Position numbers and translations under genes: made by a program. DNA of 51,694 bases from Blautia sp. (GTDB taxonomy: Bacteria > Bacillota > Clostridia > Lachnospirales > Lachnospiraceae), in NCBI GenBank assembly GCA_029257805.1, contig JARIAR010000017.1, forward strand, positions 1-51,694. Reading direction: 5' to 3'. Shown here one piece after another: positions 16,651-39,636 of the stretch. The first letter of the stretch is position 1, and every line of letters begins with the position of its first letter. The notes beneath the pieces were generated by a model. That model saw nothing but the letters and a program-made list of their open reading frames with translations, was not told the DNA's origin and made no database searches.

Positions 16651-17832
16651 TTATTTATAGCGTTCCATATAAGTATTTACACATTTCTTGATTCTTTCTA
16701 CAGGATTCAGGAGATGGCTTACAGACATGTCGTGATTCAGGGTATCAATGATAAGAGCAATATATTTACTCATATCGCAATTGATATAGTAATCTTTCTG
16801 AAGAAGTTCAGGTGTCTGGTATACAAGGTTTGTTGTAAGCATCTTATCGAATACGCCCTGTTTGTGTGCTTCATCAAATTTCTGAAGTCCATCTGTGAAG
16901 ATACCGAAAGTAGAGCAGATATAAATGCGGCCTGCTCCTCTTTCTTTCAGAAGAGAAGCGATCTTTAATACAGTATCGCCGGAAGAAATCATATCATCTA
17001 CCAGGATCACATCTTTTCCCTTTAAGTTAGGACCGAGGAATTCATAAGCTGCAATAGGATGACGTCCGTTTACAAACTTGGAATAATCAAGGCGTTTGTA
17101 ATACATACCCATATCTACACCCAGAATATTTGCAAGATAAATAGCACGGCTCATGCTTCCTTCATCAGGACTGATGATCATGAAGTGCTCGTTATCAATG
17201 CGAAGTCCTTCTTCGTTGCGCAGGAGCGCCTTAATAAACTGATAAGAAGGCTGTACGGTTTCAAATCCATGAAGAGGGGTTGCATTCTGGATACGTGCGT
17301 CGTGTGCATCAAAAGTAATGATGTTTTCTACTCCCATATCAATGAGTTCATGAAGAGAAGTAGCACAGTCAAGAGATTCACGGCCAATACGTTTGCTCTG
17401 ACGTCCTTCGTAAAGATACGGCATGATTACGTTTATACGGCGGGCTTTGCCTCCGATTGCGCCGATTACACGTTTCAGATCCTGAAAATGGTCATCCGGG
17501 GACATGAGGTTTTCGAATTTTCCCATGGAATATGTCATGCTGTAATTGCACACATCCAGAAGAATGTAAATATCATCTCCGCGGACGGATTCGGAAATAA
17601 CACATTTTCCCTCACCGGAACCAAAGCGGGGAGTCTGTACACTTATTTTATAAGAGTCTCTCTGATAGCCTTCGAAAGCAAAGGAGTCCATATGGGGGTA
17701 TTCGCGCTCTTTACGCCACTGAACAAGCCAGTCGTTTACCTTCTGTCCCAAATCCTTGCAGCTCTCCAAGGGAACCAGTCCAAGTCTTCCCACTGGAAGA
17801 GTAGCTAAATCTTTTGTTGTTACCTGTGCCAT
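16651..17832 (-). CDS. prs: Ribose-phosphate pyrophosphokinase (long form)
   Basis: This 393-residue enzyme makes PRPP from ribose-5-phosphate and ATP for nucleotide, histidine and NAD synthesis. The PRPP-binding loop VILVDDMISSGDT is near residue 275. The catalytic flexible loop with its Lys-Arg pair is in YEGRQSKRIGRES, and ITFDAHDARIQ corresponds to the metal and ATP site. It is about 75 residues longer than the typical 315-residue Prs, mainly at the N terminus and near the end, so it is a divergent paralogue. TTCCTCCT on the + strand marks a strong ribosome site that overlaps the end of dnaI three bases upstream. It is the last gene of the dnaD-dnaI-prs operon, coupling helicase loading to nucleotide supply. 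Confidence 0.88.
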   Translation of the reverse strand: MAQVTTKDLATLPVGRLGLVPLESCKDLGQKVNDWLVQWRKEREYPHMDSFAFEGYQRDSYKISVQTPRFGSGEGKCVISESVRGDDIYILLDVCNYSMTYSMGKFENLMSPDDHFQDLKRVIGAIGGKARRINVIMPYLYEGRQSKRIGRESLDCATSLHELIDMGVENIITFDAHDARIQNATPLHGFETVQPSYQFIKALLRNEEGLRIDNEHFMIISPDEGSMSRAIYLANILGVDMGMYYKRLDYSKFVNGRHPIAAYEFLGPNLKGKDVILVDDMISSGDTVLKIASLLKERGAGRIYICSTFGIFTDGLQKFDEAHKQGVFDKMLTTNLVYQTPELLQKDYYINCDMSKYIALIIDTLNHDMSVSHLLNPVERIKKCVNTYMERYK

Positions 17833-17835
17833 ATT

Positions 17836-18822
17836 TTATTTTCCTCCTAAAAAAATTTTCTGTATACGGATGTCTTTTCCGATTAGCTTTACCATTTGGT
17901 AATTGCTTGCAATGCGGGAAAACGTTCGTTCAGAATAAGTTTCTGAAAAGTTTTCCAGTTTCAGGTTAGTAGAAATAATAGTAGATTTTCTGCGCATGAT
18001 ACGCTCATTAATGCATAAAAACAACTGGGATGATACAAAGCTGTTTGTAAGCTCTGTTCCCAGATCATCAATAATGAGCAAGTCGCAGTCATAAATAAGG
18101 TCTTCCTCTGTGTGGCTGTCTTTTTTGGAAAAAGTAGTTCCTGCCAGAAGATCAAAAAGATCAAAGGCTGAAAAGTACAGAACACATCGGGCAGATTTTA
18201 GAAGCTCATGAGCAACGCAGTGGGAAAGAAAAGTTTTCCCGACACCTGTGTCGCCGTATAGAAACAGATTTTCAAAAGAATTGTCAAAATCGCGTACAAA
18301 ATTTCTTGCAATATCGTAAGCGCGCCGTGCTGTTTCTCTGGCACTAAGACCAGTGGCTTCATTTTTTATTGTATCAGAATAATAATCAAAAGAAAAGTGG
18401 TCAAAGTTTTCTTTTTTTAGAATTTCTGCAAGATTTGACTGTGTGTAAAGAAGTTCAATCTCTGCTTTTTTGAAACAGGCGCATTTTTTGCTTCCTACGT
18501 ATCCCGTGTCCTGACATATGGGGCAGGTATAAGGAAGTTCCAGATAATCGGGGGCATAGCCATGCTCTGTTAAAATAGCCCGCCTCTCCAGTGCAAGTCC
18601 TGCAATAGCAGTGCGCAGATCATCTGTTCCTGTTTCGTTCCCTGAAAGAAGCGCACGAACCTTCCTGGCACTTAGAGAAGCCACTTCTTCCTCAATCTCT
18701 TTGAGCCGTGGAAATTTGCTATAAGCTTCCTTCTGGTGTTCTTCCAGAATATGCCGGTTTTCATTTTGTCTTCGGCTGTATTCTCTCATAATCGTATCGT
18801 ATTGAAAATTCTGTAAAGGCAC
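17836..18822 (-). CDS. dnaI: DnaI/DnaC-type replicative helicase loader
   Basis: This 328-residue AAA+ ATPase probably loads the replicative helicase. The N-terminal 90 residues are a coiled, helicase-binding region. A zinc-finger-like CPICQDTGYVGSKKCAC block follows near residue 100. The AAA+ core has Walker A GDTGVGKT (about residue 192), Walker B LLIIDDLG, and an arginine-finger region with SERTFSRI. This arrangement matches B. subtilis DnaI. It lies 34 bases downstream of the DnaD-domain gene and 3 bases upstream of prs. I use dnaI for the gene; many annotations call this family dnaC. Confidence 0.88.
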   Translation of the reverse strand: MPLQNFQYDTIMREYSRRQNENRHILEEHQKEAYSKFPRLKEIEEEVASLSARKVRALLSGNETGTDDLRTAIAGLALERRAILTEHGYAPDYLELPYTCPICQDTGYVGSKKCACFKKAEIELLYTQSNLAEILKKENFDHFSFDYYSDTIKNEATGLSARETARRAYDIARNFVRDFDNSFENLFLYGDTGVGKTFLSHCVAHELLKSARCVLYFSAFDLFDLLAGTTFSKKDSHTEEDLIYDCDLLIIDDLGTELTNSFVSSQLFLCINERIMRRKSTIISTNLKLENFSETYSERTFSRIASNYQMVKLIGKDIRIQKIFLGGK

Positions 18823-18856
18823 AACGGGCCTCCTTTTTATATGTTAAAATCGCTGC

Positions 18857-19918
18857 TTATTGGTTTAAAAGACGCTTTTCATATTCTTCAAAATCATATT
18901 CTCTCTGATGGAAATTATTAAAACGATTTTGAGTTTTGGGAGTGTCTGTTTTTTTCTTTGCTGATTTTTCCAGCTTTCTCTTTTTATGTTCTGCATCCAG
19001 ACACCGTACATCGTTAAGAGTATGTACATTTTTAGATTTCCATCCAGCCAGGATTTTGTCGGTATACTGGAAACTTGGCTGCCCTGTCTGCAGGACAGTA
19101 CGGCTGCATGCTTCTAAAATAAGTTCTGTGTCGAAGGCATAGTCTTTTATCCAGGTATCCATGTAAGAAATTTCTGTATCTACCGGATTCCGGTTGCTGA
19201 TTCCCATTGCTTTTAAAATGGTGTAGTATTCCTTGCGGAAACGCGAGGTCGTTTCTTTTGCCATTTCCACAGTGGTAATGCCCTCCTGTGCCCAGGCAAA
19301 CGCAACCGTTTCTATATAGCGCATGCTTTTGTGGTTGCGGCTTACACAATATTCGATCAGATATTCGATCAAATCAGCAGACATTTTCATTTCGTCATAA
19401 AAATAAAGAACCTTCTGCATTTCGGAAGGAGTCAGTGTTTTGCCCAGATACTGTTCGGTGATATATAAAAGCTGAACGATGGTTTCATTTTGCTTTAATT
19501 CCTTTACACGGTCCGGAGTAAGACGACGGGAACCGGCTGGTGTCCTGGAGGACGAAACAGACAGGCCTTTTTCCTGAGCAGGATGCTCTTTTGGAGTTTT
19601 AGTCTGCTGTGTGCCGGAGGTACGGGGTTGATGTAAAGAAATGCATCCCAGTTTGCCGGATGGTGTATAACTCAGAGTCATGAGCTTTTCTTTTTCCCAG
19701 TATTTTAGTGCACGGGAAATATCCTTTTCTGTGCACTGAAGAGTATCTGCCATTTCTTCCGGATTTAAGGAAGCTTCCGATTCTGAAAGAATACGGAGAA
19801 GGTAAATATACACTTTTACAAATTCCCCATTTGCTCTTGGCATATAATGGTCAATAAAATTATTAGAAAGTATTGTAACTTCCGAAGGGGAAGATTTTTG
19901 TAAGATAATGGCGCTCAT
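18857..19918 (-). CDS. DnaD-domain primosome protein
   Basis: This 353-residue protein has an N-terminal winged-helix region (MADTLQCTEKDISRALKYW, about residues 57-80), a proline- and threonine-rich linker near 105-135, and DnaD domains after residue 140. The hallmark C-terminal pattern YxxxIxxxW is visible as YTDKILAGW near residue 290. DnaD/DnaB-type proteins act between DnaA and the helicase loader in Firmicutes, which fits its position directly ahead of the loader gene. It is equally a DnaB(Bs)-like or DnaD-like protein, so I give no symbol. AGGAAGTG precedes the ATG. The upstream region holds a cluster of DnaA boxes. Confidence 0.87.
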   Translation of the reverse strand: MSAIILQKSSPSEVTILSNNFIDHYMPRANGEFVKVYIYLLRILSESEASLNPEEMADTLQCTEKDISRALKYWEKEKLMTLSYTPSGKLGCISLHQPRTSGTQQTKTPKEHPAQEKGLSVSSSRTPAGSRRLTPDRVKELKQNETIVQLLYITEQYLGKTLTPSEMQKVLYFYDEMKMSADLIEYLIEYCVSRNHKSMRYIETVAFAWAQEGITTVEMAKETTSRFRKEYYTILKAMGISNRNPVDTEISYMDTWIKDYAFDTELILEACSRTVLQTGQPSFQYTDKILAGWKSKNVHTLNDVRCLDAEHKKRKLEKSAKKKTDTPKTQNRFNNFHQREYDFEEYEKRLLNQ

Positions 19919-19952: not shown

Positions 19953-19966
19953 GCCTGTTTTCAGGC
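19953..19966 (-). promoter_or_regulatory. Small leader hairpin before the DnaD-domain gene
   Basis: On the - strand GCCTG-AAAA-CAGGC is followed by TTTTATTTTATTT, between the promoter and the start codon. The 5-bp stem is weak, but the T-rich tail makes a leaky terminator or attenuator possible. Confidence 0.4.
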
Positions 19967-19982
19967 ATTGCTACTCCATAGG

Positions 19983-20011
19983 ATTATAGCACAAGATATT
20001 TTAAAAGAGAA
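19983..20011 (-). promoter_or_regulatory. Probable promoter of the dnaD-dnaI-prs operon
   Basis: A perfect TATAAT is present on the - strand at 19988-19983. The -35 position (20011-20006, TTCTCT) matches only weakly, which is common for activator-dependent or regulated promoters. Confidence 0.5.
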
Positions 20012-20076: not shown

Positions 20077-20115
20077 TGTGGAAAATGTGGATAGTGTGGA
20101 TAACTATATGGATAA
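20077..20115 (+). promoter_or_regulatory. DnaA-box cluster, dnaD-proximal group
   Basis: Three 9-mers are joined head to tail without a gap: TGTGGAAAA (20077), TGTGGATAG (20086) and TGTGGATAA (20095). TATGGATAA follows after 3 bases (20107). The third is a perfect complement of the DnaA box TTATCCACA and the others differ by one or two bases. They lie about 90-130 bases upstream of the likely start of the dnaD-dnaI-prs transcript. Confidence 0.75.
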
Positions 20116-20201
20116 ATAATTATGCGAAACTTCACAAACCTTATATTTATAAGAATAATGTAATATTTACGGAAAATATTTGTCGAATTATGTAAAGTAA
20201 A
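20116..20201. other. AT-rich spacer between DnaA-box groups
   Basis: This stretch of about 86 bases is strongly AT-rich and has no open frame of note. It separates the two DnaA-box groups. The whole gene-free region 19919-20270 thus holds a promoter, a leader hairpin, DnaA boxes and the murC terminator. Confidence 0.5.
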
Positions 20202-20270
20202 TTATACACAAAAAAATCCACATGCTATACGGGAAAAAAATGTGTATAAGCATGTGGATAATGTGGATAA
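20202..20270 (+). promoter_or_regulatory. DnaA-box cluster, murC-proximal group
   Basis: Two perfect boxes stand end to end (TGTGGATAA at 20253-20261 and 20262-20270), directly after the murC stop. Single-mismatch boxes are TGTGTATAA (20241-20249) and TTATACACA (20202-20210, opposite orientation), and a 7/9 match is AAATCCACA (20214-20222). Part of this group also forms the murC terminator stem. Confidence 0.75.
20210..20259 (-). terminator. murC terminator built from DnaA-box sequence
   Basis: On the - strand ATCCACATGC-T-TATAC and GTATAGCATGTGGAT form a 15-bp stem with one bulged T and a 13-base loop, followed by six or more Ts. It starts within 20 bases of the murC stop. Confidence 0.8.
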
Positions 20271-21650
20271 CTATTTGCCGAGAAGATGTTCTCCTATGTT
20301 GACAACATCTCCGGCGCCCATTGTGATCAATAAATCTCCATGTGCGCAGTTTTCCAGAAGGAAATTTTCGATTTCATCAAAAGTAGGGAAATATTCGCAG
20401 GGAGTTCCCAGTTCCTGGATGCTCTTCTGAAGATCTTCAGAAGAAATGCCAATGGTATTCTGTTCGCGTGCTGCATAAATATCTGCCAGGACGACATGAT
20501 CTGCAAGCGTAAGTGCTTTTGCAAATTCCGGAAGGAGTGCTTTTGTACGTGTATATGTATGAGGCTGGAATACACACCAGATTTTCTGATGCGGATAATT
20601 GGATGCAGCATGAAGAGTTGCCTCAATTTCTGTTGGATGATGAGCATAGTCGTCTATGATGGTCACACCGCCCACTTCACCTTTGTACTGAAAACGTCGT
20701 TCTGTTCCGGTGAAACTTCCCAGACCCTTGATAATAACGTCTTCGGAGAGATTAAGAAGATGGCCAAGAGCAATGGTGGCAAGTGCGTTCGATACATTGT
20801 GCATGCCCGGAACTTTTAGATAATAACTGCCGCATTTCTGCCCGTTCTTGTATACAGAGAAAGAAGCGTGTCCATATTTGTCAAATGTAATGTCCTTTGC
20901 CTGATAGTCTGCTTTATGATCAAGTCCGTAGGTAATGATCTGACAGGAAAGATCTCGAGTGATTTCTTCGTATTCCGGAATATCGGCATTGATGATCAAT
21001 GCACCGTCAGAAGGAAGAAGTTCCGCAAAACGGCGGAAAGAATGACGGATATCTTCAAGGTCTTTAAAGAAATCCAGATGATCGGCATCAATATTTAAAA
21101 TGATGCTGATCTTTGGGAAAAAACTTAAAAAACTGTTTGTATACTCACATGCTTCTGTAACAAATGTTTCAGACTGTCCTACACGGATATTTCCACCAAT
21201 TGCAGGGAGTATACCGCCTACACTTATGGTAGGATCGCATTCTCCTGCCAGAAGAACGTGGGAAACCATAGATGTGGTTGTGGTTTTGCCATGTGTTCCG
21301 GAAACAGCAATAGGTGTTTCGTAATTACGCATAATCTGTCCGAGAAGTTCCGCACGTGTAAGCATTGGAAGGCCTTTTTCTTTTGCTCTTGCAAATTCCG
21401 GATTATCGGCGTGGATGGCGGCTGTATATACAACCACTTCTACGTCATCTGTAATATTGGATGCCCGCTGTCCGTAAAAAATTTTCGCACCCTTTTCTTC
21501 CAAAGACCGGGTAAGCGGGCTCTCTTTTGCATCTGAACCGGATATTGGGAAGTTCTCGCCCATAAGAACTTCGGCAAGACCGCTCATGCTTATTCCTCCA
21601 ATCCCAATGAAGTGAATATGAAGCGGTTTCTGAAAGTCTATTTTATACAT
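20271..21650 (-). CDS. murC: UDP-N-acetylmuramate-L-alanine ligase
   Basis: This 459-residue Mur ligase adds L-alanine to UDP-MurNAc, the first step of the peptidoglycan stem peptide, in the cytoplasm. The N-terminal Rossmann domain begins FIGIGGISMSGLAEVL. The ATP-binding P-loop is GTHGKTTTTSM near residue 117, and the central domain has INIDADHLDFF-like and DDYAHHPTEI blocks, all typical of MurC. Its length is standard. An AGGAG ribosome site and TATAAT promoter lie upstream. Other mur genes are not in the window. Confidence 0.96.
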   Translation of the reverse strand: MYKIDFQKPLHIHFIGIGGISMSGLAEVLMGENFPISGSDAKESPLTRSLEEKGAKIFYGQRASNITDDVEVVVYTAAIHADNPEFARAKEKGLPMLTRAELLGQIMRNYETPIAVSGTHGKTTTTSMVSHVLLAGECDPTISVGGILPAIGGNIRVGQSETFVTEACEYTNSFLSFFPKISIILNIDADHLDFFKDLEDIRHSFRRFAELLPSDGALIINADIPEYEEITRDLSCQIITYGLDHKADYQAKDITFDKYGHASFSVYKNGQKCGSYYLKVPGMHNVSNALATIALGHLLNLSEDVIIKGLGSFTGTERRFQYKGEVGGVTIIDDYAHHPTEIEATLHAASNYPHQKIWCVFQPHTYTRTKALLPEFAKALTLADHVVLADIYAAREQNTIGISSEDLQKSIQELGTPCEYFPTFDEIENFLLENCAHGDLLITMGAGDVVNIGEHLLGK

Positions 21651-35095: not shown

Positions 35096-35169
35096 TCGAA
35101 GCGACGGGATTCGAACCCACGACCTCTGCGTCCCGAACGCAGCGCTCTACCAAACTGAGCCACGCTTCG
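35096..35169 (-). tRNA. tRNA-Pro(CGG)
   Basis: The - strand folds as a 74-base cloverleaf: acceptor CGAAGCG/CGCTTCG, D arm GCTC...GAGC, anticodon stem CTGCG/CGCAG with loop TTCGGGA (anticodon CGG, reading CCG, proline), T loop TTCGAAT, and discriminator A. The CCA end is not encoded (ACTGAC follows). It has its own promoter and terminator. Confidence 0.95.
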
Positions 35170-39371: not shown

Positions 39372-39636
39372 TACGCGCGCCGCACTTCGGAATGCTCCCA
39401 CAGACGTTACCTTTACAGTTAACTCGGCCCAGGCACCCTTACGGCACACAAGAGCTCCTGCTTAGTGCTGCTACATTCCTGTCCTGACACGGTTCACAGG
39501 TTCCTGTTGCGTAAGACCCAAACGTCAACGCCACTTATAAAGGGCAGCTCTGCAAGAAACAAGCCTCGGATTGGCATCACCCCTGCTATAGCGGATTGCA
39601 GGTACAGGGCACCGCTAACTCCCCGGCTGCGCGGAC
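39372..39636 (-). ncRNA. ffs: Signal recognition particle RNA, large bacterial type
   Basis: On the - strand the domain IV apical hairpin is clear: GTGAACCGTGTCAGG, then ACA-GGAA-TGT with the GGAA tetraloop, AGCA, and GCACTAAGC. This is the Ffh-binding site with its asymmetric loop. Upstream, GGGGTGATGCCAATCCGAGGC and the GCCGGGGAGTTAGCGGTGCCCTGTA 5' region fit the Alu-domain-bearing long SRP RNA (about 265-270 bases) of Firmicutes. The 5' end is placed from the promoter, and the 3' end from the closing GC-rich stem near 39372, so both are good to within a few bases. Confidence 0.93.

Follow-up and report, generated by a model that had tools for sequence, protein, structure and literature searches.

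Results

Genes and candidate DnaA boxes at the murC–dnaD junction

The window (the whole stretch of DNA analyzed, 51,694 nt, contig C12 of a draft Blautia sp. genome of 68 contigs) contains murC and, downstream on the same strand, dnaD, a gene for a helicase loader and a prs-like gene, with candidate DnaA boxes and a promoter between murC and dnaD (Table 1). An operon of a DnaD-domain protein, a helicase loader and a PRPP synthase had been proposed here in an earlier, sequence-only reading, and Pfam and NCBIfam models support dnaD, a DnaI/DnaC-like loader and a prs-like gene, the DnaC and DnaI models matching the loader below their cut-offs. The nearest named matches of DnaD are from MAGs labelled Eubacteriales/Clostridiales bacterium (best identity 75%) and from Blautia, and many others are from Lachnospiraceae. 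The gene order is stable in the named relatives (L205–L284): dnaI follows dnaD in 78/78 loci with enough DNA, prs is next in 72/72, and murC is located ahead of dnaD in 73/75. The three genes dnaD-dnaI-prs are presumably transcribed as one unit.

Inside positions 20077–20270 (194 bp, between murC and dnaD) we identified eight 9-mers that match TTATCCACA either perfectly (three, starting at 20095, 20253, and 20262) or with a single mismatch (five, at 20077, 20086, 20107, 20202, and 20241). As approximately 0.06 sites are expected in 194 bp (Poisson P ~3e-15), the box cluster is beyond chance. In the whole 51.7-kb window there are 21 such sites compared to 15.5 expected in shuffled sequences, a number attained by 10 of 100 shuffles; enrichment in boxes is thus a property of the cluster, not of the entire window. 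Together with a ninth, inverted site with two mismatches, this agrees with the earlier count of about nine boxes, three of them perfect, and the distance of about 86 bases given for the two groups is reproduced exactly (20116–20201, 86 bases). The former description of the boxes as joined end to end applies to 20253/20262 and 20077/20086/20095 only, the others being spaced by at least 3 bp. Below, the murC-proximal boxes are referred to as group 1, and the promoter-proximal ones, as group 2.

Table 1. Genes, candidate DnaA boxes and transcription signals in the murC–dnaD region of the window.
Feature	Position	Strand	Evidence or remark
murC	20271..21650	-	TIGR01082
DnaA box 1, TTATCCACA	20262..20270	-	Motif scan; directly after murC stop codon
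DnaA box 2, TTATCCACA	20253..20261	-	Abuts box 1; also within 5' arm of predicted terminator stem
DnaA box 3, TTATACACA	20241..20249	-	Motif scan; 3 bp from box 2
Likely intrinsic terminator of murC	20210..20259	-	Box 2 and inverted box; arms within 20259–20216, T run 20216–20210
Inverted degenerate box, AAATCCACA	20214..20222	+	Ninth site, 2 mismatches; in 3' arm of predicted terminator stem
Inverted DnaA box, TTATACACA	20202..20210	+	Motif scan
Spacer element, TTTACATAA	20188..20196	-	After inverted box at near-fixed place; 37/135 intergenics, 0.97 in shuffles
TTCGACA, between box groups	20181..20187	-	19/135 intergenics, 2.8 in shuffles (maximum 7)
DnaA box, TTATCCATA	20107..20115	-	Motif scan
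DnaA box of promoter-proximal run, TTATCCACA	20095..20103	-	Motif scan
DnaA box, CTATCCACA	20086..20094	-	Motif scan; abutting
DnaA box, TTTTCCACA	20077..20085	-	Abutting; end is 85 bp before extended -10
Weak -35 hexamer of dnaD promoter, TTCTCT	20006..20011	-	17-bp spacer
Extended -10 element of dnaD promoter, TGCTATAAT	19983..19991	-	GCTATA[AC]T motif
Small terminator-like hairpin with T-rich tail, dnaD leader	19953..19966	-	Between promoter and start codon
dnaD (DnaD-domain primosome protein)	18857..19918	-	PF07261, TIGR01446
Helicase loader, DnaI/DnaC-like AAA+	17836..18822	-	NF005304 (named only 'ATP-binding protein'), over cut-off
prs-like phosphoribosylpyrophosphate synthetase	16651..17832	-	NF005299

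Head-on orientation to replication is, in our view, unusual for essential genes. The dnaD-dnaI-prs genes (16651–19918) seem to be head-on, as GC skew is positive and the genes are on the minus strand, and the same orientation was counted by hand, with the origin taken at dnaA and along the shorter arc, in nine of the 11 genomes whose dnaA and dnaD share a contig (the exceptions are G046 and G149). The window also contains the gene of the bacterial large SRP RNA (39373–39634) and a tRNA gene (35096–35169), both on the minus strand.

Conservation of the array

In the family set (Lachnospiraceae, one genome per genus) DnaD was found in 148/150 genomes. The upstream regions were read for 145 of these 148 (G044, G073, and G089 were left out), with murC upstream in 142, and motif statistics were collected for 135 murC–dnaD intergenics of at least 80 bp. 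At least three boxes are present in 119/142 junctions; at most one box is present in 13/142, so some junctions are without the array. A perfect forward box is found in 117/135 intergenics, compared to 0.5 in shuffles. In the usual layout, counted from the murC stop, a pair of boxes is positioned at +0/+9, often followed by a third site at about +21; further on come an inverted site near +47 to +60 and a second box run, typically near +87 to +106 or +155 to +185. In close relatives (e.g., L206, L209, L211, L214, L217, and L228) an inverted box-like site (TCATCCACA, other strand) is also seen just after the group 2 boxes.

Abutting pairs with at most one mismatch occur somewhere in 125/150 family genomes, compared to 5/150 for the backward control. 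Exact abutting pairs are found in 89/150 genomes (control 0/150), and exact pairs spaced by 1–4, in 35/150. There are at least 150 abutting-pair places, and among the 150 listed, 82 are on the contig of dnaD (assigned by contig, not by distance).

The order and class searches covered the best-scoring loci only (29 in addition to that of the window for the order, 26 for the class). In the order set, with three of the 29 loci coming from the same family, boxes were counted over the murC–dnaD interval, or over 700 bp in loci with no murC found nearby; at least three boxes are present in 22/29 of these best-scoring loci, including 19/26 from other families, and in 11/16 families. In the class set, one locus (L199) is from the same order; murC is found within the upstream stretch in none of the 26 best-scoring loci, 22 of them have no box and four have one box, and the array was not seen ahead of dnaD in the 25 best-scoring loci from other orders. 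The comparison of box counts in these two sets ties the array to the murC–dnaD junction of the order, as far as read. Where the two genes are separated, single exceptions point both ways: in L150 approximately 1.3 kb separate the end of murC from dnaD, and the boxes are found no farther than 270 bp from dnaD, while in L161 and L163 it is dnaD that is distant and the boxes remain next to murC. Absence of the array from close relatives had been named beforehand as evidence against the proposed regulation; we find it kept ahead of dnaD in the family and at the majority of the order-level loci read.

Comparison with replication origins

A secondary origin was also considered possible in the sequence-only reading, and the box clusters around an AT-rich stretch are indeed in line with it, resembling the bipartite oriC of B. 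subtilis and Clostridioides difficile, described in the part of the source consulted as two box clusters with AT-rich DNA (PMC7561715). These oriC regions, however, flank dnaA. The only DnaA over the cut-off in the window's genome, with a normal DNA-binding domain, is encoded on another contig (C42), which places the array away from dnaA/oriC, and the dnaA upstream region has a box cluster of its own; dnaA-dnaN is not adjacent to the array. All 25 2-kb bins of the window have a positive GC skew, with no sign switch. The spacing of boxes differs as well: at 11 dnaA loci, close same-strand pairs are 10–12 bp apart in 12 of 14 cases and 9 bp apart in none, while 200 of 281 close pairs in the 135 murC–dnaD intergenics are exactly 9 bp apart. 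Finally, the distance between dnaD and dnaA varies from approximately 45 kb to 1.26 Mb (11/16 genomes with both genes on one contig; worked out by hand, one value assuming a circular contig). We therefore reject the secondary origin, which is extremely improbable given dnaA and its boxes elsewhere, no skew flip and spacing unlike that of oriC.

Group 1 boxes as a likely terminator of murC transcription

The murC-side box group likely doubles as the transcription terminator of murC, as predicted from RNA folding. In the fold predicted for the window (-23.2 kcal/mol for the first 75 nt), box 2 forms a stem with the inverted box, and a run of seven T comes next. In 94/135 loci, forward TCCACA is followed by inverted TGTGGA within 14–60 nt, the next 9 nt contain on average 6.6 T compared to the background of 3.0, and the stem extends past the box core by a mean of 4.07 pairs, compared to 1.16 ± 0.12 when 3' flanks are dealt among loci. 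The mean folding z of -6.2 is in part inflated by construction, because the loci were chosen for the inverted core. A terminator scan with the loop limit of 8 did not list the murC-side hairpin. One sequence thus appears to serve both as putative protein-binding DNA and as an RNA terminator stem.

This raises the question of whether only the terminator is under selection, the box-like sequence of group 1 being a by-product of the hairpin. The stem, its matched extension and the T tract in 94/135 loci would be explained, and in the window's predicted fold box 1 is paired too, the other inverted box being its partner in an outer helix. Yet box 1 is outside the main stem and is better conserved than box 2, being perfect at offset 0–3 from the murC stop in 77 of the 135 intergenics, compared to 53 of 135 at offset 9–12 for box 2. 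Moreover, a terminator stem is free to be any sequence, yet TCCACA is kept, and the group 2 boxes have an inverted core within 60 nt in just 10/99 loci and no T tract (a mean of 2.9 T in the next 9 nt). Selection for the terminator only is, hence, very improbable.

The dnaD promoter and its helical phasing with the box run

The extended -10 promoter downstream of group 2 is strongly conserved in aligned close relatives, and is present in L218 though the array there is absent. The GCTATA[AC]T motif is found in 71/135 intergenics compared to 0.8 in shuffles, and in the reverse orientation in 0/135. For the hairpin in the dnaD leader, no counterpart was seen in aligned close relatives.

Measured between the last forward box and the TG of the -10 element, the distances cluster at about 46, 56, 66, 76, and 86 bp (85 bp in the window); a further pile at 49–51 bp vanishes once the abutting run is taken as the anchor. 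Out of 129 loci with the promoter motif, 116 also have an abutting run, and in 105 the distance does not exceed 150 bp. For these 105 family loci, the Rayleigh scan of distances from the run to the -10 element yields the best period of 10.3 bp with R 0.65, and smoothed nulls reach the observed R in 0 of 20000 cases. Control distances demonstrate no such periodicity, R at 10.3 bp being 0.09 and 0.11 for the murC stop to the -10 element and to the last box, respectively, and 0.18 from the -10 element to dnaD (n = 48). Eighteen variants of the motif and anchor give periods of 10.2–10.7 bp, and the named loci, overlapping in part with the 105-locus set, give 10.4 bp (R 0.77, n = 61 of 80).

Common descent was addressed in two ways. 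The intervening DNA of loci with equal distances has the mean identity of 40%. Further, 104 of the 105 loci were placed in the MurC tree and 52 path-disjoint pairs were formed; the absolute difference in distance is 0–2 bp in 21 pairs, 3–6 bp in none, 7–13 bp in 21, 14–19 bp in none, and at least 20 bp in ten. The pair test again yields the best period of 10.3 bp (P 1e-4 by jitter, 30 pairs with differences of 3–60), a value to be read with kinship handled by one tree and one pairing only. Gain and loss of 9-bp boxes was rejected as the cause of the period, since R at 9 is only 0.35–0.43. Within the family, the box run is thus in helical phase with the dnaD promoter; steps of 10.3 bp correspond to one helical turn, as would be expected if DnaA touches RNA polymerase.

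With just 11 usable distances, same-family loci included, the order-level set does not establish phasing (best period 13.2, R at 10.3 only 0.44). The phase between group 1 and group 2 is not convincing (best period 11.1, R 0.51, two length classes) and was discarded. Twenty-four loci keep only the murC-side boxes; in the 18 of them with a measured distance, the pair is 63–65 bp from the -10 element in 12, 52–53 bp in two, 43 bp in two, and 88 and 98 bp in one each. We also considered the weak -35 box as a proof of activator dependence. The -35 hexamer averages 3.71 of 6 in array-less loci (n = 7) compared to 3.25 in the others (n = 113); the array-less loci are too few and display no clear difference, so activator dependence is not demonstrated in this way.

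Discussion

Probable regulation of the dnaD operon by DnaA

The array is real and strongly conserved, and is distinguished by an unusually clear geometric signature and a predicted double-use terminator. Judging by sequence, DnaA probably controls the promoter region of dnaD-dnaI-prs, in either direction, repression included. That DnaA may regulate its own helicase-loading partners, as suggested in the sequence-only reading, is the best explanation of an array conserved ahead of dnaD and, in the family, phased with its promoter; the promoter downstream of the boxes and the likely role of group 1 in termination of murC had been overlooked there.

Activation seems the more likely outcome, because the box run is located upstream of a weak -35 box combined with an extended -10 element. 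According to this model, DnaA would fill the abutting boxes, and with the promoter-proximal run at whole helical turns from the extended -10 element it would meet RNA polymerase on one face of DNA, this contact raising transcription of dnaD-dnaI-prs. Both the occupancy of the array by DnaA and the contact with polymerase are presumed here. The level or activity of DnaA would then set the supply of helicase-loading proteins, yielding a feedback on initiation, while the murC-side boxes, folded into a stem in the RNA, would stop murC transcription and insulate the two units.

DnaA could instead repress the operon from the phased sites, e.g., by holding polymerase or by looping between the groups. 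Phasing fits a repression complex equally well, two groups flanking an AT-rich spacer are reminiscent of a loop, and in E. coli DnaA is described as both an activator and a repressor (PMC11317965, in the part consulted). On the other hand, the forward box runs are upstream of the promoter, mostly 43–98 bp away, rather than over the -35 and -10 elements, and the -35 box is weak. Moreover, in 12 of the 18 murC-side-only loci the pair alone is kept at approximately 64 bp from the -10 element, hence two groups are not needed. We consider repression unlikely.

Another role to be weighed is that of a DnaA titration site without an effect on the neighboring operon. Six DnaA-box clusters are reported for B. 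subtilis, their joint removal leading to early initiation (PMC5295017, PMC11019786, excerpts), and other abutting-box clusters exist in the genomes considered here. Titration, however, requires neither a fixed promoter nor a helical phase, and the array stays at the murC–dnaD junction in most order-level loci read. As the sole function it is thus quite unlikely; titration in addition to promoter control could take place.

Returning to activation, a broader interpretation can be proposed only tentatively: over much of the order, DnaA may act as a helically phased activator of its own loader operon, via a code of abutting boxes with a 9-bp pitch absent from the oriC regions read, and with the letters of the boxes reread as an RNA terminator stem. 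To our knowledge, little is known about how bacteria match the supply of the helicase loader to the initiator. If true, the proposed regulation would close a feedback loop from the initiator to the loader, because DnaD is reported to counter cooperative binding of DnaA in B. subtilis (PMC4447404, PMC5295017, both in excerpt). The natural set of promoters with boxes approximately 46, 56, 66, 76, and 86 bp from the -10 element would also constitute a ready-made spacing experiment, phasing predicting that 10-bp insertions are tolerated and 5-bp insertions are not.

Relation to known DnaA-binding loci

The DnaA-box clusters of B. subtilis (ywlC, yqeG/sda, gcp-ydiF, ywcI-vpr, yydA, and others) are, like the array, located outside oriC and mostly intergenic; they are reported to be bound by DnaA (PMC4447404, excerpt), as the boxes described here are predicted to be. 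The top-ranked DnaA-bound regions named in the consulted parts of three papers do not include dnaD, dnaB, or dnaI as neighbors (PMC4447404, PMC5295017, PMC11019786), unlike the present array, which accompanies the same operon across much of the order and, in the family, is phased to its promoter.

DnaA-regulated promoters of E. coli (nrdA, dnaA, and others) share with the array the use of box pairs as regulator sites, predicted in our case; pairs spaced by 2–3 bp are preferred there, whereas here the spacing is 0 bp and the target is the helicase-loader operon. The same source, as far as consulted, calls DnaA-dependent activation poorly understood (PMC11317965). The datA and DARS loci of E. 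coli are also DnaA-box loci outside the origin, but they are described as altering the nucleotide state of DnaA or titrating it, with IHF/Fis (PMC5295017, excerpt), in contrast to the predicted phased promoter here. Related literature includes a 2025 study of titration in E. coli (PMC12371093, excerpt) and a 2026 review (PMC13220808, excerpt). Among the titles listed in the literature searched, which covers few subscription papers, none describes a DnaA array ahead of dnaD.

Spacer elements and other box clusters

Two short elements are located between the box groups (Table 1). For a looser version of the TTTACATAA motif, 35/48 occurrences start 60–79 bp from the murC stop. This element was considered as a -35 box and rejected, as column counts show no -10 element at the right distance. 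The second element, TTCGACA, is what we take to be the reverse complement of the Spo0A-box-like TGTCGAA. Spo0A is present over the cut-off in 16 of 19 genomes with TTCGACA and in 72 of 116 without it, which is a weak link (Fisher P 0.07). With a minority of loci and such a link, TTGACATAATTCGACA was rejected both as a -35 box and as a general tandem Spo0A site. Spo0A is also more frequent in genomes with TTTACATAA (31/37 vs 57/98, P 0.005) and in those with at least three boxes (82/119 vs 9/23, P 0.009), related genomes being counted as independent in both comparisons, from which nothing is concluded. TTTCGACA is also present in the oriC region of the window's genome (L033).

Among 20 other tandem-box places examined, 11 are located upstream of hpf, encoding the ribosome hibernation factor, and constitute a second cluster of abutting boxes outside oriC (L305–L309, L311, L315, L316, L320, L322, and L323), mostly far from an extended -10 element. 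In nine of these 11 loci secA is found in the same stretch; Pfam confirms hpf in L305 and secA in L307. Speaking against a general rule, the hpf-linked boxes are 162–270 bp from the extended -10 element in 10/11 loci, two of these ten also having a box at 54 or 65 bp, so that close phased placement is not demonstrated for such clusters in general. Further clusters (L324, L310, L314, L317, L318, L319, and L321) are located near genes of NlpC/P60 cell-wall hydrolases, a trxB-like pyridine-nucleotide-disulphide oxidoreductase gene, and mecA; one of them (L324, G000:C67:3000-7200, cluster at about 1996–2085) is within the window's own genome.
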